Position numbers and translations under genes: made by a program
The notes under the pieces: model-generated
What the model was told of the DNA's origin: nothing
Seen by the model: only the letters and a program-made list of their open reading frames with translations
Database searches by the model: none
In this document: one piece after another, positions 2,101 through 30,554 of the stretch
Layout of the letters: every line of letters begins with the position of its first letter
Numbering within the stretch: the first letter of the stretch is position 1
Assembly: GCF_004803405.1 (NCBI RefSeq)
Contig: NZ_SSXI01000060.1
Coordinates: 62,001-126,000 of the forward strand
Direction: 5' to 3'
DNA: 64,000 nt
From: Nocardioides sp.
GTDB taxonomy: Bacteria > Actinomycetota > Actinomycetes > Propionibacteriales > Nocardioidaceae

Positions 2101-4602
2101 ATGAGCCACGAACAACCCGATCAGCTTCCGACGGACCAGGACTGGCGCAAGACCGCCTGCATCCTGTGCGAGTGCAACTGCGGACTCGAGATCAAGGTCG
2201 AAGGGCGCCGGCTCGCCAAGATCCGCGGCGACAAGCAGCATCCTGCCTCGGCCGGTTATACCTGTGAGAAGCCGTTGCGGCTCGACCACTACCAGAACGG
2301 CCGCGACCGGATCACCTCCCCGCTGCGCCGCGCCGAGGACGGCAGCTACGAGGAGGTCGACTGGGACACCGCCATCAACGAGATCGCAGTCCGGCTGCAA
2401 GCGATCAGGAACGAACACGGCGGCGAAACGATCTTCTTCTATGCCGGGGGCGGTCAGGGCAACCACGTCCCGGGCGCCTACGGACAGTCGCTTCGCGCCG
2501 CCTTGGGATCGCGCTACTACTCCAACGCGCTGGCGCAGGAGAAGACCGGTGAGATGTGGGTCGACGGGCGGCTCTACGGCGGCCACACCAAAGGCGATTT
2601 CGAGCACTCCGAGGTCGTGCTGTTCCTGGGGAAGAATCCCTGGCAGTCCCACAGCTTCCCGCGCAGCCGCCCGGTGTTGAAGGAGATCGCCGCCGACCCG
2701 AACCGCGCGATGATCGTGATCGACCCGCGCCGCACCGAGACCGCCGACCTGGCCGAGTTCCACCTTCAGGTACGTCCCGGCACCGACGCTTGGTGCCTGG
2801 CCGCGATGCTCGGCGTCCTCGTCCAAGAAGACCTCATCGACCACGAGTTCGTTACGGAACACACGGCGGGCGCCGATGAGGTCCTTCCCCTGTTGTCGCG
2901 GGTGCCCGTGCGCGAGTACGCCGATCGTTGTGGCGTCTCGGAGGACCTGATCCGCGCGGCGACCCGCCGGTTCGCGGCGGCAGCAAGTGCCACGACGTAC
3001 GAGGACCTGGGCATCCAGCAAGCTCCCAACAGCACCTTGGTGTCCTACCTGAACAAGCTGCTGTGGATTCTCACCGGCAACTTCGGGCGCCCCGGCACCA
3101 TGTATCTGCACTCGTCGCTGGTGTCGATCGCGGGCGGCGGCTCAGGATCAGGTACGCGACCGACGCCTTCGCGAGCAAGACGTGCAGCCGCCCTGGCTGG
3201 AGCCAAGCTGACCACCGTGGCCGCCCAGACAGTGGCCCACGGTGTGCCTCTTGCCGGCCGGTCACCAGTGCCCGACGGCGTCCTGAACGCTCTGGCGCGC
3301 ACCGCCGTGGACCGGATGGCGCCGATGCTGAGCGGTTCGCTGGCGACCGGTGTCGGGAGCAAGGGCGCCCGGACCACTCCGGTGACGGGCGCACCCGTCA
3401 TCGGCGGGCTCATCCCCTGCAACTCGATCGCCGATGAGATCCTCACCGACCATCCGGACCGCTTCCGGGCCATGTGGATCGACAGTTCCAACCCTGCGCA
3501 CTCGCTGCCGGACTCCGGCCGCATGGCCGAGGCCTTGCGAGCCCTGGACCTCGTGGTCGTTGTCGACGTCGCCTTTACCGAAACAGCGCGCCTGGCCGAC
3601 TACGTCCTGCCCGCTGCGACGCAGTACGAGAAGTGGGAGGCGACGTTCTTCAACTTCGAGTTCCCGCACAACGTCTTCCAGCTACGGGCACCACTGCTGG
3701 ACCCGCTGCCGGGCACCCTCCCTGAATCCGAGATCTACTCCCGCGTGCTCCGCGCGCTCGGGGCGGTCAACCCCGACGTCCTGGCGCGACTCAGGATCGC
3801 CGCAGGGACCGGCCGCGACGCCTTCGCGCTGGCGTTCTTCGCCGCGGCGGCCGCGGACCCGTCGCTGCTGGGCCAGGCGGCCTACGTGCTCCACGAGACG
3901 CTGGGCACCACGCTGCCCGACGACGCGAGGACCGCAGCATTCCTCTGGGGCGCGGCCCACATGTGCGCCCTGGCCAACCCCGACGCCGTGGCCCGCGCGG
4001 GCTACGACGGCCCAGGTCTGCGTCCGGGTGAGAAGCTCTTCGACGCCATCCTCGCCGAGCGCAGCGGCGTCACCTTCACCGTCGACACCTGGGACGATGT
4101 CTGGCAGTACGTCCGCGGCAAGGACCGCCGCTTCACGGTGGCAATCCCCTCGTTGCTCGAGAGCCTGGGCGACCTGGACGAGGCACCCTCGTCGTGGACC
4201 ACCGAGGAGTTCCCCTTCGTCCTGGCCGCCGGAGAACGACGCGCCTTCACCGCCAACACCATCATCCGCGACCCGGACTGGAGACGCCGCGACCGCAACG
4301 GCGCCCTGCGGATCAGCCCCGCCGATGCTCAGCAACTGGGCGTGGAAACCGGCGGCCGGGTGCGCATCGTCACCGAGACCGGCGCCGCAGAGACCGAAGT
4401 AGAAGTCACCGACACCCTCCAGCCCGGCCACATCACGCTTCCCAACGGCATGGGTGTCGACGACCCCACGAACGAAGCCGGGAACTCCCCGACGCGAGTC
4501 GGCGTCGCGCTCAACACTTTGACCGGCACACGGCACCGCGACCCCATCGCGGGGACACCGTGGCACAAGTACGTCCCGGCACGCCTGGAACCCCTACCGT
4601 GA
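2101..4602 (+). CDS. Molybdopterin-dependent oxidoreductase with N-terminal [4Fe-4S] site
   Basis: An 833-aa catalytic subunit of the DMSO-reductase/formate-dehydrogenase superfamily. Residues 19-26 read CILCECNC, and a fourth cysteine lies in GYTCEKP about 30 residues later. This is the usual [4Fe-4S] site ahead of the molybdopterin domain. Further marks are FLGKNPWQSH, VIDPRRTETADLAEFHLQVRPGTD, WIDSSNPAHSLPD and the C-terminal dinucleotide-binding domain (NTIIRDPDWRR through LPNGMGVDD). The ATG at 2101 is chosen because AAAGG lies 7 nt upstream; an in-frame ATG at 2062 lacks a site. There is no Tat signal, so it is cytoplasmic. No electron-transfer subunit lies nearby, and the substrate is unknown. 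Confidence 0.85.
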   Translation: MSHEQPDQLPTDQDWRKTACILCECNCGLEIKVEGRRLAKIRGDKQHPASAGYTCEKPLRLDHYQNGRDRITSPLRRAEDGSYEEVDWDTAINEIAVRLQAIRNEHGGETIFFYAGGGQGNHVPGAYGQSLRAALGSRYYSNALAQEKTGEMWVDGRLYGGHTKGDFEHSEVVLFLGKNPWQSHSFPRSRPVLKEIAADPNRAMIVIDPRRTETADLAEFHLQVRPGTDAWCLAAMLGVLVQEDLIDHEFVTEHTAGADEVLPLLSRVPVREYADRCGVSEDLIRAATRRFAAAASATTYEDLGIQQAPNSTLVSYLNKLLWILTGNFGRPGTMYLHSSLVSIAGGGSGSGTRPTPSRARRAAALAGAKLTTVAAQTVAHGVPLAGRSPVPDGVLNALARTAVDRMAPMLSGSLATGVGSKGARTTPVTGAPVIGGLIPCNSIADEILTDHPDRFRAMWIDSSNPAHSLPDSGRMAEALRALDLVVVVDVAFTETARLADYVLPAATQYEKWEATFFNFEFPHNVFQLRAPLLDPLPGTLPESEIYSRVLRALGAVNPDVLARLRIAAGTGRDAFALAFFAAAAADPSLLGQAAYVLHETLGTTLPDDARTAAFLWGAAHMCALANPDAVARAGYDGPGLRPGEKLFDAILAERSGVTFTVDTWDDVWQYVRGKDRRFTVAIPSLLESLGDLDEAPSSWTTEEFPFVLAAGERRAFTANTIIRDPDWRRRDRNGALRISPADAQQLGVETGGRVRIVTETGAAETEVEVTDTLQPGHITLPNGMGVDDPTNEAGNSPTRVGVALNTLTGTRHRDPIAGTPWHKYVPARLEPLP

Positions 4603-4873
4603 CCACCGCGACCGACGCTGCAGCGACGATGCGCGGCAGGACGGTCCTCGACGCGGCGGTCCGCACGTCGAAGACCTCCGGGCCACCGCCACAGTCGCGG
4701 ACGTCCACGACCTGTTCCAAGACGACCACGTCCACGCCGCGCTGATCGTCGACGCCAACGGACGACTCATGTCTGTCATCGAGCGCACCGACCTCGGTAC
4801 CCCTTGCCGCGCGGCAGCTCCCGCCCGGCGCCTCGGGCGTTGGGGACGGCCTGGTCGAGCTGTGCAGCCGTGA
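4599..4873 (+). pseudogene. CBS-domain protein gene, frameshifted and truncated
   Basis: A GTG overlaps the stop of the molybdopterin gene (GTGA) and opens a frame reading MRGRTVLDAAVRTSK. The CBS sequence then continues in another frame from about 4673: TVADVHDLFQDDHVHAALIV followed by DANGRLMSVIERTDLGTP. One base must have been lost or gained between about 4660 and 4673. After TDLGTP (about 4798) the frame enters sequence that is antisense to another truncated gene, so the 3' part is missing too. The gene was probably once the last of the molybdopterin operon. Confidence 0.6.
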
Positions 4874-4979
4874 GCCCGGTGCCGCCCTGCAGGTGCACCG
4901 ACAAGGTGTGCGCCTGTCGGCGCGTCAGCAGCACGGGTGAGACCGGCGCCGTCGGCTCCAGACCGTGCTTGATCCTCAT
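4776..4979 (-). pseudogene. Truncated third gene of the glyoxalase operon, unknown function
   Basis: The ATG at 4979 overlaps the stop of the membrane protein gene (ATGA), as expected for a coupled third gene. The frame runs for 67 codons, beginning MRIKHGLEPTAPVSPVLLTR. Its last 20 or so residues are read from DNA antisense to the truncated CBS gene, so only about the first 45-60 residues seem original. I do not recognise the family. It and the CBS remnant end against each other near 4798-4860, which looks like a deletion junction. Confidence 0.4.
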
Positions 4980-5436
4980 GGTCGCCTGGCGATCAGTGCG
5001 AAGCCGATCGAGGCGACGATCAGTCCCGGCGGGTACGGCGGCCACAGTGACAGCACCGCCGCGAGGCCGAGGGCGACCGCGGCCGGTCGGGAGATCGATC
5101 GTTGCCGCCAGCCGGCGATCGCGAGGCCGAGGAGCGCTGGGAAGCAGAGCAGGGACTTCACGGCCATGCCCCAGAGGACCCAGGGGGAGTTGAAGAAGAG
5201 ATCGTCGAAGTGCGCGTTCGTGGTGCCCTTCGCCGCGGCGACGACGAACGTGGAAAGGGCCCACGCCGTGGCTCCGGCGAACCAGACGCCGGCTGCGGCG
5301 GCGAGCACGGCCCAGCGGGGAAGCGTGGTGCGCCATCGCAGCAGCCCCATGCCTAGTAGCAGGCACCCGATCGTGGTGAGGGCGGCGCTGCCGATGCCGA
5401 CGGGGTGGAGCGAGCCTCGACGAAGGTGGCGGTCAT
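4976..5436 (-). CDS. Small integral membrane protein, probable N-terminal frameshift
   Basis: About 150 residues with four hydrophobic segments: SAALTTIGCLLLGMGLL, WAVLAAAAGVWFAGATAWAL, LWGMAVKSLLCFPALLGLAI and AAVALGLAAVLSLWPPYPPG. An ATG at 5436 overlaps the stop of the glyoxalase gene and has AAGGAG upstream, but it is in another frame and meets TAG within 30 codons. The membrane frame has no good start near that site; an in-frame ATG at 5488 lies inside the glyoxalase gene without a ribosome site. A one-base shift between about 5400 and 5425 would join the coupled start to the membrane frame. The function is unknown. Confidence 0.6.
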
Positions 5437-5969: not shown

Positions 5970-6602
5970 ATGGGTGACGCCGTCAAGAGGTCCTATCGGT
6001 CGCCGGCGCGAGCGGCCGCCGCGGCCGAGACGCGCGCAGCGATCCGGGCGGCCGGGGCCGAGCTCTTCCTCGAGGAGGGCTTCAGCCGCACGACCATGAA
6101 GGCGGTGGCCGCGCGGGCTGGGGTCGGCGAGCGCACGCTGTACGACGCCTTCGCCACCAAGAACCGACTCTTCGAGCACATCGTGTCCGTGGCAATCGCC
6201 GGCGACGAGGAGCCGATTGCCGTCGCCGACCGCCCCGAGTTCCTGGCGGCGCTGGCGCAGCAGGACGGGCGGCGGGCCGTCAGCCAGTACGCCACCTACT
6301 CGGCGGCGATCCTCGAGCGAGCCGCGCCGCTCATCACGGTCGCCATCGAGTCGGCCGGCGCCGATCCGGCGTTGCGGAAGTTCTCTGACGCGGGCGCGGC
6401 CGCGACGCGGGCCAACACCCTGGCGTTCGTGGAGGCGCTCGCCCGGCACAGGCACGTCGACGGAAAGCCCGCCGAGCGGGCGATGGCCGCCTACGCGCTC
6501 CTCGTACCCCTTGTCCACCAGCACCTGCGCAGGGACGTCGGCTGGTCCGCGCGCCGCTATCGCGCCTGGCTGGAGGAATCGCTGGTCAGGGTCCTGCTGT
6601 GA
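5970..6602 (+). CDS. TetR-family transcriptional regulator
   Basis: A 210-aa TetR protein. The helix-turn-helix is at about residues 15-60 (RAAIRAAGAELFLEEGFSRT, then MKAVAARAGVGERTLYDAFATK), followed by an alpha-helical ligand-binding part ending VHQHLRRDVGWSARRYRAWL. In-frame ATGs at 5961 and 5970 are both possible; neither has a strong ribosome site, and the mRNA may be nearly leaderless. It is divergent from the glyoxalase gene and shares the 5930-5946 inverted repeat with it. I infer that it represses itself and the glyoxalase/membrane operon; the inducer is unknown. Confidence 0.85.
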   Translation: MGDAVKRSYRSPARAAAAAETRAAIRAAGAELFLEEGFSRTTMKAVAARAGVGERTLYDAFATKNRLFEHIVSVAIAGDEEPIAVADRPEFLAALAQQDGRRAVSQYATYSAAILERAAPLITVAIESAGADPALRKFSDAGAAATRANTLAFVEALARHRHVDGKPAERAMAAYALLVPLVHQHLRRDVGWSARRYRAWLEESLVRVLL

Positions 6603-6610
6603 GGTCGTGA

Positions 6611-6632
6611 CGGCGCCTGGTCGAAGGCGCCG
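6611..6632. terminator. Possible terminator hairpin
   Basis: CGGCGCC, eight bases, then GGCGCCG forms a 7-bp GC stem 9 nt after the TetR stop and before a convergent ArsR gene. There is no T-run, which is common for actinobacterial terminators. Confidence 0.4.
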
Positions 6633-6805
6633 AGCGTGAGACGTGACGGCCCTCGAACTCGCCTGCGCCAATGACACCTTCGCTGAGCGGGAGGACGGAG
6701 GCTGCTCCGAGTCCCCGCCACGTAGGAGCGTCCTCCGGCGTGGCTTCGCAATAGCCGAACGGCCTGTCTAACGCGACGCGGCCGAGTCGTCGCATCGGTG
6801 ACTGG

Positions 6806-24376: not shown

Positions 24377-25135
24377 ATGGCCGCGGTGGGATCACCCACG
24401 TGGATCGTGCGGACGAACGGCTCGCTCAGCCTGCGCGACCAGCTGCGCTTCGCTCGCGCGGCGGTCGCCCGCGAGGTGGTAGCGCTGCCGGCGGCGATCC
24501 GTCGCCGCCCGGAGCCCCGTCGGGTTCTCGACGCCGACCGCAGCCCGCCCGATACCCGGCTGGCGCGCGCGATGCAGCAGGTGTCCGCATCTGCGCTTCC
24601 GGCCCCGCTGCTCGGACACAGCATCCGCACCTGGCTCTGGGGCAGCATGCTCGCTGAGATCGACGGCATCGCCTACGACGACGAGCTGCTCTACGTCGCA
24701 GCACTGCTGCACGACCTCGGTCTCGCACCCGGGCACCGGCCGAGCCCGGAGGCCGGCTGCTTCGCGGTGCACGGCGCGGTGGAGGCACGAGATCTTCTCC
24801 TCGACGCTGGTGCCGACGCGGAGTACGCACGCCGGGTCTGCGACGCGATCGCCGCGCACTTCAACGTCAACGTCCCCCTCGACTGGGGCGCCGAGGCACA
24901 TCTCCTTCACGGCGGCGCCCATGTCGACGTGGTCGGACGTCGCCTGGGCGAGATCGCAGCTTCGACCGTGACCCAGGTCTTGGAGCGAGAGCCACGGATC
25001 GGCTTCGCGGACTGCTTCACGCAGGCGATGCGGACCGAGGCTGAGTTGCGGCCGGGCTCGCGAGCCGGGCTGCTCTGGCGACTCGGCATGGAGCGGGCCA
25101 TCCGCCGTGCCCGCTTCCCGACCCCGGCGGGGTGA
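24377..25135 (+). CDS. HD-domain phosphohydrolase-like protein
   Basis: A 252-aa protein with an HD domain at about residues 75-185. It reads LGHSIRTWLWGSMLAEIDGI (first His), LLYVAALLHDLGLAPGHRPS (the HD pair), HGAVEARDLLLDAGADAEYA, and AIAAHFNVNVPLDWGAEAHL. It resembles cyanamide-hydratase-like HD proteins, in which the metal acts on small nitriles, purines or unknown compounds. The substrate is unknown. It is the first gene of a four-gene run (24377-26442) downstream of a TetR box. The ATG has ACGAGGT upstream. Confidence 0.8.
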   Translation: MAAVGSPTWIVRTNGSLSLRDQLRFARAAVAREVVALPAAIRRRPEPRRVLDADRSPPDTRLARAMQQVSASALPAPLLGHSIRTWLWGSMLAEIDGIAYDDELLYVAALLHDLGLAPGHRPSPEAGCFAVHGAVEARDLLLDAGADAEYARRVCDAIAAHFNVNVPLDWGAEAHLLHGGAHVDVVGRRLGEIAASTVTQVLEREPRIGFADCFTQAMRTEAELRPGSRAGLLWRLGMERAIRRARFPTPAG

Positions 25136-25139
25136 GCGC

Positions 25140-25508
25140 GTGAAGGCGACAGTCATCGGTTTCCTCGGTGCCGTGTTCATCGGGCTCGGGGCCTGGGCTG
25201 GGATCGACAGCGCGTCGTTCGCCGCGACGCTGGCCGACTTCGGCCCCGAGAACGACCACCTGGTCCATGACTTCGGAGCCGCGTCGGCCGCGATGGGCGC
25301 CGGGCTGCTGGTCGCCGTGCCACGAGTGGCATGGCGGACGCCCGTGCTGCTGGTCGCGATGCTCTGGAACGGCCTGCACGCCGTCTCGCACGCGGTCGAC
25401 CTCGGCGACGCCGCGTCCCGCACGGTCGGGGTCGCCGAGCTCGCGCTGCTGATCGGCACTACGGCACTGCTCGGCGTACTCGCTCTTCCGTCGAAGGAGA
25501 CCGAATGA
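25140..25508 (+). CDS. Small integral membrane protein (four helices)
   Basis: A 122-aa protein with hydrophobic segments VIGFLGAVFIGLGAWAGI, AASAAMGAGLLVAVP, TPVLLVAMLWNGLHAVSHAV and VAELALLIGTTALLGVLALP. It starts at a GTG five bases after the HD gene stop. The layout resembles DoxX/DUF4345-like small membrane proteins, but I cannot name a family with certainty. It is cotranscribed with the HD and NTF2-like genes; the stop overlaps an ATG (25505, ATGA) that is in frame with the next gene. Confidence 0.75.
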   Translation: MKATVIGFLGAVFIGLGAWAGIDSASFAATLADFGPENDHLVHDFGAASAAMGAGLLVAVPRVAWRTPVLLVAMLWNGLHAVSHAVDLGDAASRTVGVAELALLIGTTALLGVLALPSKETE

Positions 25509-25615
25509 CCGGCCCGAGCGCTTCCGCCGCAAATGGACCGCTCGGGGTCGGGCCCTTGTTCTGGCGACGCCGCCTGCTGCGCCCATCGATATCTCGACAC
25601 CACCGGAGGACAACC

Positions 25616-26083
25616 ATGACCACGCACGACCTCGTCTCGTCAGCGGCCGCCTTCGTCGCCGAGGCCGAACGGATGACCAACGAGCGCGACGTCGACGGCA
25701 TCCGCGCCGTCTTCAGTGAGGACGCCCACCAGATCGCGACCCTCGACGGCCTCCTGATCGACGCCCGCGGCATCGAGGAGATCCACCGAGCCTGGGGCCG
25801 GATGTGCGTCTTCATGGAGGCGCGCCGGATGTACGTCTCCAAGACCCTCGTGACGGCGGATCCGACCACGATCGTCAACGAATGGGTCGGTGAGGTCGCC
25901 GGGCGACGGACCGCGCGCGGCATCGAGGTCTGGAAGCTCGACGAGGCCGGCCGTGTCGTCGAGCAGCGGTTGTACGGGTTCCTCGACGCGCGCCCCGAAC
26001 CGAGCCTGGTCCAGAACCTGCGCATGCTCGTGGCGCACCCGCTCACCGCGCTCGGGTACGCCCGGGCGCGAAGGCACGCGTGA
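25616..26083 (+). CDS. SnoaL/NTF2-like fold protein
   Basis: A 155-aa protein: SSAAAFVAEAERMTNERDVD then IRAVFSEDAHQIATLDGLLI, a typical helix-then-strand start of the cone-shaped NTF2/SnoaL fold, and TTIVNEWVGEVAGRRTARGI later. The start at 25616 is set by GGAGGA 7 nt upstream. An in-frame ATG at 25505 that overlaps the previous stop would add 37 residues, but it runs through a CCCGAGCG/CGCTCGGG hairpin and looks less likely. The fold can be an isomerase, a hydrolase or a binding domain. The role is unknown. Confidence 0.75.
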   Translation: MTTHDLVSSAAAFVAEAERMTNERDVDGIRAVFSEDAHQIATLDGLLIDARGIEEIHRAWGRMCVFMEARRMYVSKTLVTADPTTIVNEWVGEVAGRRTARGIEVWKLDEAGRVVEQRLYGFLDARPEPSLVQNLRMLVAHPLTALGYARARRHA

Positions 26084-26442
26084 ATCCCGGCGTCGCCGTC
26101 GTCGCGGTCTTCTTCGCCGGCATGGGCCTCACCGCACTGGTGAAGCCTGCCGTCATCTGGGCGCCCTTCGGGGTGGCTCCGACCACGGCCGAGTCCCGCA
26201 ATGAGGTCCGTGCGGTCTACGGCGGCTTCGGCGTCGCTGTCGCCGCGCTGCTCATCGTTGCTGACGGGAGCGCCGCAGGCTTCCGCGCCGGGGTCTTGAT
26301 GGCCATCGCGATCGCGCTGCTCGGGATGGTCGCGGGCCGCGTGGTAAGCGCGCTCGTGGAACCCAAGGCCCTGATCGGCTTTCCTGGGTTCTTCATGGTG
26401 CTCGAGGCGGCGCTGGCCGGTCTGCTGCTCACGGGACGCTGA
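26080..26442 (+). CDS. DUF4345-like membrane protein
   Basis: A 120-aa protein with four predicted helices: VAVVAVFFAGMGLTALVKPA, EVRAVYGGFGVAVAALLIVA, GVLMAIAIALLGMVAGRVVS and FFMVLEAALAGLLLTGR. The pattern NEVRAVYGGFGVAVA is characteristic of DUF4345 proteins. It begins at a GTG overlapping the preceding stop (GTGA), so it is the last gene of the HD operon. The function is unknown. Confidence 0.75.
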   Translation: MNPGVAVVAVFFAGMGLTALVKPAVIWAPFGVAPTTAESRNEVRAVYGGFGVAVAALLIVADGSAAGFRAGVLMAIAIALLGMVAGRVVSALVEPKALIGFPGFFMVLEAALAGLLLTGR

Positions 26443-26538: not shown

Positions 26539-27204
26539 TCAGTCCCTGCTCTCGCTGGGGAGCTTCTCTGCAGCCCACTCCGGGAACCCGTCCTCGAGCC
26601 GGAGGGCGCTGCGCCCGGAGTCGGCGAGCAGCCGCACGGCGTCGTCGGCGTAGACGCAGAACGGCCCGCGGCAGTAGGCGACCACCTCGGTCCCGTCCGG
26701 GATGTCCTCCAGTCGTGACTTCAGCTCCGTGACCGGGATCGACAGCGCGCCGCGGATGTGGCCGGCGTCGTACTCTGCCCTGGGTCGTACGTCCAGCACG
26801 ACGACGTCGCCCTCGCGGATTCGCTTGCGGAGCTCGTCGCGGGTGATCGTCCCCAGCTGGTCGCGGTCGCCGAGGTAGGCGCGAGCCAGGTCGTCGAGCT
26901 GGCTGACGTGGGCTGCTGCCGTCTCGCGCATCGTGCGCCAGAGGGTGAAGACCACCGGGCTGGCGAGGGAGTAGTGGATCCGGGTTCCGTCGCGTCGCGA
27001 CCTGACCAACCCCGAGCGGAGCAGCCGCTGCAGGTGCTGGGAGGTGTTGGCCACGCTCTGCCCGATCTCCTCGGCCAGCTCCTCGACCGAGCGCTCGCCC
27101 TGGGCGAGCACGTCGATCAGCTCGGCGCGTCGCCCGCTGGACAGCGCCTTCGCGGCCTCCGCCAGAGAGTCGTACAGGGCAGCCTTTGCAGTGTGGTCAC
27201 CCAC
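26539..27204 (-). CDS. ArsR winged-helix regulator fused to a rhodanese domain
   Basis: A 221-aa two-domain protein. Residues 1-110 are an ArsR winged helix (AKALSSGRRAELIDVLAQGE; IGQSVANTSQHLQRLLRSGL; SRRDGTRIHYSLASP) without a single cysteine. Residues 120-221 are a rhodanese domain with VVVLDVRPRAEYDAGHIRGA and the active loop C178-R-G-P-F-C183. These two are the only cysteines in the protein, so sulfane-sulfur sensing probably uses this pair rather than the HTH. GTG 27204 is chosen because GGAGG lies 7 nt upstream. It is divergent from the membrane/MBL-rhodanese/MFS operon across two perfect operators. Confidence 0.85.
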   Translation of the reverse strand: MGDHTAKAALYDSLAEAAKALSSGRRAELIDVLAQGERSVEELAEEIGQSVANTSQHLQRLLRSGLVRSRRDGTRIHYSLASPVVFTLWRTMRETAAAHVSQLDDLARAYLGDRDQLGTITRDELRKRIREGDVVVLDVRPRAEYDAGHIRGALSIPVTELKSRLEDIPDGTEVVAYCRGPFCVYADDAVRLLADSGRSALRLEDGFPEWAAEKLPSESRD

Positions 27205-27221
27205 CGGGCACCTCCAAGCAT

Positions 27222-27237
27222 TCAAGAAATCTCTTGA
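27222..27237. promoter_or_regulatory. ArsR-rhodanese operator 1
   Basis: TCAAGAAATCTCTTGA, perfect 6-bp arms around 4 bp, next to the regulator start and overlapping a TTGACA -35 hexamer (27234-27239) for the rightward promoter. Confidence 0.7.
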
Positions 27238-27261
27238 CAACGCGGTCGGGCCGCGCGTTAA

Positions 27262-27277
27262 TCAAGTATCTACTTGA
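27262..27277. promoter_or_regulatory. ArsR-rhodanese operator 2
   Basis: TCAAGTATCTACTTGA, perfect 6-bp arms around 4 bp, 40 bp centre-to-centre from operator 1. It begins in the likely -10 region (GTTAAT, 27257-27262) and ends just before the GGAGG of the rightward operon. Confidence 0.7.
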
Positions 27278-27293
27278 ATAGGAGGCGTGGCAA

Positions 27294-27791
27294 ATGACCA
27301 CAGTGAACACCACCCCGCGGAACGCGACGGACGAGACGCGACTCCGCCTCGGCTCGGCGATCATGGCTGTGGGAGGGCTCGGCTTCCTCGGGTACGCCGT
27401 CATCTTCTTCATCCGCAACTTCACCGACTCGTTCCTCGAGCTCGGCATCGGTCCCGACCAGGTCGACGTCGGCAAGGCCGAGATCCAGGCGTTCAGCCCG
27501 CAGCTCGAGCACTACATCAGTCACCTGCACATCGCGGTGGCCGCCTTCATCGGCGCGACGGGCATCGCGGTCGCCGCCTTGGCCTGGTACGGCGTACGCC
27601 GGGGCGAGATGTGGGCCTGGGTGACGGCGGTCGTCGTCCCGGTCTTCGGGCTCGCCGTCGCGCTTCCCGCGCACTACCCGTGGGGCTTTGACACCATCGG
27701 CCACCTGGGCCTGATCTACGCCGACACGCTCCTGTTCGTCGTCGGGGCCGGGATCGCGCTCGTGCCTCTGCTGAGAAGGAACCGAGCATGA
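27294..27791 (+). CDS. Integral membrane protein of the sulfur cassette
   Basis: A 165-aa protein with four helices: GSAIMAVGGLGFLGYAVIFF, HLHIAVAAFIGATGIAVAAL, MWAWVTAVVVPVFGLAVALP and LIYADTLLFVVGAGIALVPL. A loop of about 40 residues (FTDSFLELGIGPDQVDVGKA) lies between helices one and two. I do not recognise a named family. It starts at an ATG with GGAGG 8 nt upstream, straight after the two ArsR-type operators, so it is the first induced gene. It may help transport a sulfur compound. Confidence 0.75.
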   Translation: MTTVNTTPRNATDETRLRLGSAIMAVGGLGFLGYAVIFFIRNFTDSFLELGIGPDQVDVGKAEIQAFSPQLEHYISHLHIAVAAFIGATGIAVAALAWYGVRRGEMWAWVTAVVVPVFGLAVALPAHYPWGFDTIGHLGLIYADTLLFVVGAGIALVPLLRRNRA

Positions 27792-27964
27792 CCACCGTCG
27801 ACACCTTCGAGCTCGAGGGCAAGCTCAAGCACATCTACCGCGAGGTCGCCGAGCATCCGAAGGGTGACTTCCACTTCGAGCTCGGCTCGAAGCTCGTGGT
27901 CGCGGACAAGCAGGCGGTCACGAGCATCTCGGCCTCGCTACGAAGCTGGACTGACGGGAGGTAG
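27788..27964 (+). CDS. Small 58-aa protein resembling a methyltransferase N-terminal segment
   Basis: A 58-codon gene whose ATG overlaps the preceding stop (ATGA). It reads LKHIYREVAEHPKGDFHFEL, then GSKLVVADKQAVTSISASLR. The first half is like the segment 'vk.vY..Va..P.gefHFElGr' at the start of arsenite-methyltransferase-like proteins; the catalytic part is absent. It lies between the membrane protein and the MBL-rhodanese gene with good coupling on both sides, so it is probably expressed. It could be a domain kept for binding, or a leftover of a deleted gene. Confidence 0.6.
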   Translation: MTTVDTFELEGKLKHIYREVAEHPKGDFHFELGSKLVVADKQAVTSISASLRSWTDGR

Positions 27965-27966
27965 CG

Positions 27967-29310
27967 GTGACGGATCAGGTGGTGACATCCGTGCGGGACG
28001 AGGGGCTCGCCAACTCGGCGTACCTCGTGGATCTCGGCGACGGCCGGGCGCTGGCGGTGGACGCCTGCCGGGACCTGCGGGCGCTGCGCCGTGCGGCCGG
28101 CGCAAGAGGGCTGACGATCGCCTTCGCTGCGGACACGCACCTGCACGCCGACTTCCTCTCTGGCGCGGTCCAGCTCGCGGCCGACGACGGTGCTCAGGTG
28201 GTCGCCTCGGCGAGTGGTGGACGGGAGTTCCCGCACCTGGGTCTCGAGGACGGCCAGGAGCTCGATCTCGGCGGACTGACACTGCAGGCGATGACCACAC
28301 CGGGCCACACCGACGAGCACGTCGCCTTCCTGCTCCGTGACGATGCGACCACGCTCGGCGTCTTCACCGGCGGCTCGCTGATCGCGGGCTCGGCCGCGCG
28401 GACCGACCTCGTCGATCCGGACCGCACCGAGGAGCTCGCCCGGGCGCAGTATCGCTCGCTGCGGCGGCTCGCCGAGCTCGACGAGTCGGTCGTCGTCTGG
28501 CCCACGCATGGCGGCGGGTCGTTCTGCGCCACCAGTGCGACGTCCGCGGGTGGCGCAACGACGATCGGGCTGGAGCGAACCACCAACCCGATGCTGAACG
28601 CGGCGGACGAGGAGGAGTTCGTTCGCCGGATGCTCGGCTCGCTCGGCAGCTACCCGCCGTACTTCTTGAGACTCGGCGAGGAGAACCGCCGCGGTCCGGC
28701 CGTGCTGCCCGCGGCGCTGTCCCTCGAGGCCGTGGCGTCGTACGGCGAAGCGCTGGTCGTCGACGTACGCTCGCCCGCCGCGTTCGCCGCGGGCCACCCC
28801 GCCGGCGCGCTCTCGATCCCATTGCGGCCGGCGTTCGCCTCATGGCTGGGTTGGCTGGCCCCCAACGACCGTCCGTTGCTGCTGCTGCGTGACCCCGACC
28901 AGGACCTCGAGGAGGTTCTGTGGCAGGCGGCGAAGATCGGCTACACCAACTTCGTCGGCGAGATCGCGGGTGGCCTGCAGACATGGACCGACGCCGGGCT
29001 CCCGGTCTCGTCGCACGAGATGCGCGCGGCGTTCCCTTCGCACGAGGCCGTGGTGCTCGACGTCCGGCAGGAGTCGGAGTTCCTGGCCGGCCACGTTCCT
29101 GGTGCGGCCCACGTCGAGCTGGGGTCCCTGGCGGACGAGGTTCCCGAACTGCCGGACGGAGCGGTCGTCGTGATGTGCGGTCACGGCGAGCGGGCCTCGA
29201 CCGCCGCCAGCATCCTGCGCCGGAGCGGCTTCGAGGACGTGACGGTGCTCGCCGGTGGACCGAAGGAGTGGGTGGAGGCGCAGGGCACCCACCTGGAGAC
29301 GGGCGGGTGA
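27967..29310 (+). CDS. MBL-fold protein fused to two rhodanese domains (CstB/persulfide-dioxygenase-like)
   Basis: A 447-aa protein. Residues 1-235 are a metallo-beta-lactamase domain: T57-H-L-H-A-D62 in place of THxHxDH, H114 in TPGHTDEH and H181 in WPTHGGGSFC. Residues 255-350 are a rhodanese-like domain with VVDVRSPAAFAAGHPAGALS but no active cysteine (LLLLRDPDQD). Residues 355-447 are a second rhodanese with VVLDVRQESEFLAGHVPGAA and the active C404 in VVMCGHGERA. The layout fits oxidation and transfer of persulfide sulfur. Where the metal-bridging Asp (TGD) is expected, the sequence has FTGGSL. The GTG has GGGAGG upstream. Confidence 0.8.
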   Translation: MTDQVVTSVRDEGLANSAYLVDLGDGRALAVDACRDLRALRRAAGARGLTIAFAADTHLHADFLSGAVQLAADDGAQVVASASGGREFPHLGLEDGQELDLGGLTLQAMTTPGHTDEHVAFLLRDDATTLGVFTGGSLIAGSAARTDLVDPDRTEELARAQYRSLRRLAELDESVVVWPTHGGGSFCATSATSAGGATTIGLERTTNPMLNAADEEEFVRRMLGSLGSYPPYFLRLGEENRRGPAVLPAALSLEAVASYGEALVVDVRSPAAFAAGHPAGALSIPLRPAFASWLGWLAPNDRPLLLLRDPDQDLEEVLWQAAKIGYTNFVGEIAGGLQTWTDAGLPVSSHEMRAAFPSHEAVVLDVRQESEFLAGHVPGAAHVELGSLADEVPELPDGAVVVMCGHGERASTAASILRRSGFEDVTVLAGGPKEWVEAQGTHLETGG

Positions 29311-30554
29311 ACCCGCCCGTTCATCCGAGCCTGGGGCTGCGCGCCAACGCCGCCCAGTTCACGCTGCTGGTCGCGGTCAACGCGCTCGTCGGAGGCATGC
29401 TCGGCCAGGAGCGAACTGTCGTGCCGCTGCTGGCCACCCAGGAGTTCGGCCTCGACTCCTACAGCGCAGCGCTGACCTTCATCCTCGCCTTCGGACTGGC
29501 CAAGGCGGCCACCAACTACCTGGCCGGCACTTGGTCGGAGCGGTACGGGCGCAAGCCGGTCCTGGTGGCGGGCTGGCTCATCGCGGCCCCGGTGCCGCTG
29601 CTGCTGATCTGGGCGCCCTGGTGGTGGGTCGTCATCGCGGCCAACGTGCTGCTCGGGATCAGCCAGGGGCTGACCTGGTCGACCACAGTGATCATGAAGA
29701 TCGACCTTGTCGGGCCTCACCGCCGTGGCATGGCGATGGGGCTCAACGAGTCGGCCGGCTACATAGCGGTGGCGTTCACCGCGCTGCTCACCGGCTGGAT
29801 CGCGGCCGAGGCGGGGCTGCGGCCGGAGCCGTTCCTGCTCGGCATCGCCTACGCCGCGCTCGGCCTCGGCCTGTCCGTGCTCGTGGTCCGGGAGACCCTC
29901 GGACACGCGGCCGGTGAGGCGGCGAGCAGCAGGGAGCCTGGCGACCGCTCCGACCGCGACGTCTTCCTGCACACCAGCGTCCGGGAGCCGGCGCTCTCGT
30001 CGGCGAGCCAGGCCGGACTGGTCAACAACCTCAACGACGGCCTGGCGTGGGGGCTCTTCCCGGTGCTGTTCGTCGGAGCCGGCCTCTCGGTCGCCGAGGT
30101 CGGCTGGCTGGTCGCCCTCTACCCGGCGGTGTGGGGACTCGGCCAGCTCGTCACAGGCGCCCTCTCCGACCGTTGGGGCCGCAAGCGTCTGATCACCGCC
30201 GGCATGCTGACCCAGGCGGCAGCCCTGGCGATCACCGCCGAGGCGGCGACCTTCGCGGCCTGGGCCGGCTCCGCCGTACTCCTCGGCGCCGGGACCGCGA
30301 TGGTCTACCCGACCCTGCTCGCTGCGATCGGCGACGTCGCCCACCCAGCCTGGCGGGCCCGAGCGATCGGCACCTACCGACTGTGGCGGGACAGCGGCTT
30401 CGCGGTCGGCGCCGTCCTTGCCGGCGTGCTCGCCGACGCCTTCGGCATCCGCGAGGCGATCTGGGCGATCGCAGGGCTCACCGCGGTCTCAGGGCTGGTG
30501 GTCGCGCTCAGGATGTACGAGACACTCCCGCCGACCATCCAACGGGACGCCTGA
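29307..30554 (+). CDS. MFS transporter of the sulfur cassette
   Basis: A 415-aa major-facilitator protein with about 12 helices. The loop 2-3 signature is AGTWSERYGRKPVLVAGWLI, and the equivalent loop in the second half is GALSDRWGRKRLITAGMLTQ. Other marks are GMAMGLNESAGYIAVAFTAL (motif C region) and the last pair of helices (WAIAGLTAVSGLVVALRMYE). The GTG at 29307 overlaps the MBL-rhodanese stop (GTGA). As the last gene of a sulfane-sulfur-responsive operon it may export sulfite, thiosulfate or another product, but the substrate is not shown by the sequence. Confidence 0.8.
   Translation: MNPPVHPSLGLRANAAQFTLLVAVNALVGGMLGQERTVVPLLATQEFGLDSYSAALTFILAFGLAKAATNYLAGTWSERYGRKPVLVAGWLIAAPVPLLLIWAPWWWVVIAANVLLGISQGLTWSTTVIMKIDLVGPHRRGMAMGLNESAGYIAVAFTALLTGWIAAEAGLRPEPFLLGIAYAALGLGLSVLVVRETLGHAAGEAASSREPGDRSDRDVFLHTSVREPALSSASQAGLVNNLNDGLAWGLFPVLFVGAGLSVAEVGWLVALYPAVWGLGQLVTGALSDRWGRKRLITAGMLTQAAALAITAEAATFAAWAGSAVLLGAGTAMVYPTLLAAIGDVAHPAWRARAIGTYRLWRDSGFAVGAVLAGVLADAFGIREAIWAIAGLTAVSGLVVALRMYETLPPTIQRDA

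Follow-up and report, generated by a model that had tools for sequence, protein, structure and literature searches.

The question raised by this locus is which signal its regulator answers and what the genes facing that regulator do in response. The locus occupies positions 26539-30554 of a 64,000-nucleotide stretch of Nocardioides sp. DNA (contig NZ_SSXI01000060.1; this whole stretch is called the window here) from a genome of 4.67 Mb in 334 contigs. It consists of an ArsR-type regulator fused to a rhodanese domain and a divergent operon encoding a membrane protein, a 58-aa open reading frame (ORF), a metallo-β-lactamase (MBL) fold protein with rhodanese domains and a carrier of the major facilitator superfamily (MFS). 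We consider it probable, at roughly 0.6, that this cassette is a sulfane-sulfur stress unit under a local autorepressor, which would sense through the loop of its own rhodanese domain.

The intergenic region carries two operators with no strand assigned, O1 (TCAAGAAATCTCTTGA, 27222-27237) and O2 (TCAAGTATCTACTTGA, 27262-27277), 40 bp apart from start to start. A first-pass annotation, made from the letters of this DNA alone, had placed two such operators on the divergent promoter, and these proved to be the sole exact matches to TCAAG-N6-CTTGA in the genome, the reversed control pattern occurring at one place. When one mismatch was allowed, the window held five matches against 0.47 expected, a number reached in none of 100 shuffles. 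The right arm of O1 overlaps a −35-like TTGACA of the rightward promoter. The candidate operon promoter (TTGACA-17 nt-GTTAAT, 27234-27262, plus strand) agrees by eye with 10 of 12 consensus bases and was not listed by the consensus scan, which accepts a second hexamer only with A as its second base. For the regulator, the scan gave a candidate promoter (TTGCCA-17 nt-GATACT, 27265-27293, minus strand; a match of this kind is no proof of function) whose second hexamer lies within O2.

Of 23 regions compared ahead of regulator genes, 19 carry paired operators (up to two mismatches, 39-47 bp apart); these are all 19 with regulators at least 62% identical, and at most one in 200 single-base shuffles per region yielded a pair. 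This set includes the window as well as L021 and L022, in which the regulator frame is broken or truncated (the start in L022 was set by hand), while L032-L034 were unused as repeats of genomes already present. The arms are kept across species and the six central bases vary. Of 18 printed upstream regions, 17 have TTGACA, the −35 hexamer for the outward gene, at the proximal site, and L015 has TTGACG instead. Among 29 further homologues from the phylum (the best-scoring with DNA returned, from 47 matches besides the window's own), 19 had at least one site with no more than one mismatch and two had a pair. This is evidence from phylogenetic footprinting, which predicts binding but does not prove it. 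The uniqueness and conservation of the sites support the proposal of a local circuit made up of the regulator and its twin operators. The description of the cassette as self-contained holds for the exact operators in its own genome and fails in relatives, where like sites also stand ahead of other genes. A pair precedes a second methyltransferase in L003 (Nocardioides islandensis) and L011, with a single site there in L006; L007 and L012 have paired sites, each ahead of a gene; and a single site stands ahead of a DsrE-family gene in L008. The membrane-protein gene of Arthrobacter sp. ISL-72 (L010), which is downstream of the regulator on the same strand, has an exact pair ahead of its ATG, at distances of 79 and 37 nt.

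A different palindrome accompanies a second group of regulators. In the genus, L039, L041, L043, L046 and L049-L053 carry TCCAA-N6-TTGGA, often as TCCAAAGATCTTTGGA, just 5' of the regulator start codon and extending into the GGAGG ribosome site; by eye it is present in nine of 19 printed upstream regions of regulators with 43-48% identity. It has the same 5-6-5 geometry as the cassette operators with other arms, which suggests diverged DNA specificity in this group.

The regulator itself (26539-27204, minus strand, 221 aa) was delimited from Pfam matches to HTH_5 and Rhodanese, its cysteine positions and an alignment of 19 sequences. It starts at a GTG with GGAGGT ahead of it, and an alternative TTG at 27240, just outside an operator, would give a longer ORF. 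Its ArsR helix-turn-helix (HTH) region scores above curated cut-offs (PF01022, 40.3 against 22; NF033788, 72 against 55), and the protein reaches only 37.1 bits against the cut-off of 155 of the curated BigR profile NF040642. With the GTG counted as residue 1, C178 and C183 in the rhodanese loop CRGPFC are its only cysteines, as the first-pass annotation had stated; the HTH has none, and with no cysteine before residue 178 the arsenic-sensor motif of ArsR proteins is absent. Both cysteines are invariant in 19/19 aligned regulators, and the CX4C loop recurs in 29/29 of the further phylum homologues. It is therefore plausible, as far as sequence can indicate, that sensing has been relocated from the HTH to the rhodanese part. 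A sample of 296 genomes from the phylum gave 46 with a homologue of the regulator (E≤1e-30), and a sample of 147 from the genus gave 23, the own genome being included in both counts; in the genus five others are 71-77% identical and the rest 43-49%.

The persulfide-sensing ArsR proteins SqrR, BigR, YgaV and HlyU are described as having a cysteine pair in α2 and α5 of the HTH that forms a polysulfide bridge, with a tetrasulfide (+62 Da) reported for HlyU, and they are reported near sulfurtransferase or rhodanese genes (PMC10509353). Their operator is given as ATTC-N8-GAAT (PMC9774250). The present regulator shares with them the ArsR winged helix and, as proposed here, dithiol sensing. Unlike theirs, its cysteine pair lies in the loop of a fused rhodanese domain rather than in α2 and α5, and its operator is ATTCAAG-N6-CTTGA, which where fully symmetric corresponds to ATTC-N12-GAAT and not to ATTC-N8-GAAT.

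ORF coordinates and Pfam domains bore out the divergent gene order and the tight junctions that had been claimed for the operon. The membrane-protein gene (27294-27791, plus strand) overlaps the 58-aa ORF (27788-27964, plus) by 4 nt, a 2-nt gap separates this ORF from the MBL gene (27967-29310, plus), and the MBL gene overlaps that of the 415-aa carrier (29307-30554, plus) by 4 nt. Besides the two domains of the regulator, Pfam recognized Lactamase_B and two stretches of Rhodanese in the MBL protein and MFS_1 in the carrier. Comparison with Rfam gave no match at gathering scores.

The MBL protein has the domain chain of CstB, the persulfide dioxygenase-sulfurtransferase of Staphylococcus aureus: an MBL fold, a rhodanese-homology domain without a loop cysteine and a rhodanese domain with C404. 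The middle loop has a cysteine in 0/16 sequences and C404 is present in 16/16. Its predicted structure (pLDDT 87) aligned along its full length with 3tp9 (TM 0.86) and over about 345 columns with 3r2u (TM 0.67), which we take to be CstB. The cst operon has a CsoR-type regulator, unlike the ArsR-rhodanese regulator found here. A second difference from CstB concerns the metal site. The iron ligands of ETHE1 are His79, His135 and Asp154 (PMC4383860), and these columns map to H58, H114 and G136, so that Gly replaces the third ligand Asp and the His-His-Asp triad of persulfide dioxygenases is incomplete. Because this ligand is absent, dioxygenase activity should not be assumed, and the protein should not simply be named a persulfide dioxygenase.

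We compared the 41 distinct MBL sequences that span residues 50-190, including that of the window and its paralogue. Gly occupies the third-ligand column in 36 of the 41, the window's among them, and every one of these also has Phe or Tyr where HxHxDH ends in His. The remaining five (L056, L057, L067, L130 and L132) have Asp and His at the two columns; their contigs, some of them cut by contig ends, also carry a regulator homologue and a carrier, and the Gly and Asp/His forms may serve one pathway. H60, D62, H118, H181 and C187 are each shared by at least 40 of these sequences, and it is a matter of speculation that they make another metal site.

The same genome encodes a second MBL-rhodanese protein (contig C333, 61058-62733; loci L095 and L096), which is 34-36% identical and has THIHNDY and FSGG. 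The enzyme at L095 also has Gly, with a short rhodanese-like frame beside it and no exact TCAAG-N6-CTTGA site at that locus.

The regulator, the MBL protein and the carrier recur together across the phylum, even with regulators of just 45-50% identity. Our comparison of related loci covers those among the matches listed, so that absence from it means little, and its gene maps came from a simple codon-score gene finder that includes false ORFs and hid the true methyltransferase in L003. DsrE genes lie close by in L008, L009 and, by eye, L138, and a stand-alone rhodanese gene in L003. A type III sulfide:quinone reductase (SQR) is encoded near the cassette in L144 (561 against a cut-off of 525), and two SQR matches in L149 are below cut-off. 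These DsrE, stand-alone rhodanese and above-cut-off SQR genes near the cassettes of relatives favour a link to sulfane sulfur over one to metals, with the limit that no search was aimed at metal-resistance genes.

The repression, inducer, loop chemistry and direction and substrate of transport that we infer would fit together as follows. Dimers of the regulator on both operators would shut the operon at its −35 and start region and the regulator's own promoter at its −10. When persulfide or polysulfide builds up, the loop C178-RGPF-C183 would accept sulfane sulfur and the two thiols would be joined through sulfur; the altered rhodanese domain would then cause the winged helix to leave the DNA. 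The CstB-like protein might take up and convert sulfane sulfur with C404 of its rhodanese domain as acceptor, the carrier might move a substrate or product across the membrane and the small membrane protein might be an accessory. The operon would thus probably be on when reactive sulfur accumulates, and the cassette is probably a little-studied variant of ArsR-governed defence against sulfide and persulfide.

Several observations weigh against this account. The four regulators at 49-53% identity lack paired operators (0/4), and 10 of the 29 further phylum homologues have no site at one mismatch or fewer. The CX4C pair could be a plain redox dithiol. Because the MBL protein lacks the Asp ligand of the dioxygenase iron site, persulfide removal is not assured. 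The SQR of L144 found no match when searched against the genome of the window, though an empty result of this kind shows nothing. The carrier gave weak matches to solved proteins, the best being the drug exporter NorA. Lastly, the gene adjoining the regulator in many relatives encodes an ArsM-like methyltransferase, which could indicate metalloids.

Of the other explanations, the most probable is a response to thiol-reactive electrophiles, oxidants or metalloids, in which the CX4C pair forms a disulfide or binds a soft metal or metalloid and the carrier and an ancestral ArsM-like methyltransferase clear the inducer. This is unlikely in our judgement, although the methyltransferase divergent from the regulator in relatives is closest to arsenite methyltransferases, both in curated profiles (PRK11873, 217 bits for the L006 protein tested) and among solved ArsM structures. 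Its domain is related to that of ArsM, and the cysteine of C-(I/L)-GGA is kept (SCIGGA for ECLGGA). The score is nevertheless below the family cut-off of 263, and the first substrate cysteine of VISNCVCN is replaced by Gly (VISNG for VISNC). Genomes in which the membrane-protein family adjoins OsmC and ECF-sigma-like (extracytoplasmic function) genes would suit this explanation, as would the carrier, since carriers of the MFS are often drug exporters. However, the enzyme retained beside the regulator is CstB-like with rhodanese domains, and there was no arsenic gene among the scanned neighbours, though no search was aimed at arsenic genes.

Still less probable is an arrangement in which the inducer is sensed elsewhere, for instance as a ligand in the groove of the ArsR dimer, and the regulator's rhodanese domain either works as a sulfurtransferase or serves for protein interaction. 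Rhodanese domains are frequently enzymes, and the first cysteine of the loop is at the catalytic position. In the operon's own rhodanese domain, however, the residue five after the catalytic cysteine is the Arg of a CX4R loop (C404-GHGE-R409), and in the regulators a second Cys stands in its place (19/19 and 29/29); the regulator also lacks any other cysteine. Both features speak against this explanation.

The 58-aa ORF had been described as a protein without known role, which is wrong in substance; it is the remnant of a class I S-adenosylmethionine methyltransferase gene. Its first ~36 codons (27788-27895) match the N-terminus of the enzyme, with 40-64% identity to relatives. In these relatives the intact methyltransferase gene is divergent from the regulator and encodes ~253-256 aa in seven of nine loci, the other two being L015 (195 aa) and L004, which is cut by the contig. 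At the other end, the DNA from 27917 matches the 3' end of methyltransferase genes; in a comparison that tolerates frameshifts, 0-18 of 500 shuffles of two-base blocks reached the score in each of seven comparisons. Comparison of the tail with methyltransferase C-termini as protein was not significant (80-752 of 1000 shuffles reached the score in seven comparisons). VTSIS is still in the old frame and is followed by a frame slip that carries the reading past the old stop near 27952-27954. Because the N-terminal match ends at about residue 36 and the 3' DNA matches with a slipped frame, the ORF is taken as a relic left by a large internal deletion and a frameshift, and the MBL gene downstream still draws its ribosome site from the end of this relic. 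No intact copy close to the methyltransferase was found in the genome, where every other match was partial and none exceeded 39% identity. That the ORF is instead a working small protein is very improbable: an uninterrupted frame, close coupling to both neighbours and N-terminal identity to relatives would permit it, but in most comparisons that identity stops far short of the full enzyme and the 3' DNA continues the methyltransferase gene with a slipped frame.

Mycobacterial Rv0324 is an ArsR protein with a C-terminal rhodanese domain. The best solved relative of the regulator's HTH is 2kko/3gw2, presumably a mycobacterial counterpart of Rv0324, and the regulator probably belongs to the same family. 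Rv0324 has been discussed for bedaquiline tolerance, and the passages that discuss it state neither a sulfur role nor an operator (PMC9480834). A large published network of ArsR proteins left out sequences longer than 150 residues (PMC10509353), which would exclude fusions of ~220 residues such as the present regulator. The literature searched, which left most subscription papers outside its coverage, contained no description of this regulator type or of the cassette. The parts of the cassette are known ones, and what sets it apart is a fused dithiol rhodanese as the probable sensor, an operator of its own and an enzyme from a clade in which the canonical iron triad is incomplete. We tentatively suggest, with less confidence than for the cassette itself, that ArsR-rhodanese proteins in which a CX4C loop, in place of CX4R, is the switch form a separate class of sulfane-sulfur repressors, common in Actinobacteriota and coupled to a CstB-like clade (HxHxDF/Y plus G) that treats persulfides by an altered, perhaps three-His, metal site. 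With the regulator in 46 of 296 phylum genomes and a defined operator common to its closer members, a widespread sulfur circuit is now open to direct tests, and the Asp-to-Gly clade raises the question whether the canonical facial triad is indispensable to a persulfide dioxygenase.

Homologues of the membrane protein were found in 13 of 395 other genomes sampled from the phylum, plus L010, and in none of 97 other sampled genomes of the genus. In 15 aligned sequences the central part is strongly conserved and FLELGI, LPAHYP and GHLGL are invariant; this is a real, sparsely distributed family to which a role cannot be assigned by fold. The structural model, built from two sequences only, has a pLDDT of 71 and four long predicted helices. 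Foldseek gave no match in the PDB at E≤0.001, VIA-align rows with Z up to 12.2 were helical bundles of unrelated kinds that assigned no family, and Pfam and NCBIfam matches to Phage_holin_9, IspA and septation protein A were below cut-off. The leader of the window's gene aligns with the operator-bearing leader of L010. Twelve of the 14 homologues besides L010 were tested (L065 and L066 were left out), and none had an operator pair or a site with fewer than two mismatches; membership of the regulon is therefore seen only in the window and L010. The alignment of leaders suggests that the membrane protein entered the regulon together with, or next to, an operator-bearing leader.

Adjoining the cassette, a SnoaL-like gene lies between two DUF4345 genes (25107-26442; the first DUF4345 match is below the Pfam cut-off), and these genes seem to be outside the cassette because there is no exact operator there. 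In Nocardioides sp. B-3 (L021), the matches to the regulator (6001-6661), the MBL protein (4045-5339) and the carrier (2811-3993) are each split in two in the record, which reflects sequencing error or decay.

Elsewhere the membrane-protein family adjoins methyltransferases of the family that left the 58-aa relic, ECF-sigma-like genes, OsmC genes and sometimes MBL or MFS genes. In L078, L079, L081, L083 and L085 it lies near an ECF-sigma-like gene and a methyltransferase gene, with a small cysteine-rich gene in L083 and L085 and an OsmC-like gene in L078 and L079 (Pfam was run on L079 alone). Loci of this type may represent the theme in another version, driven by a sigma factor.

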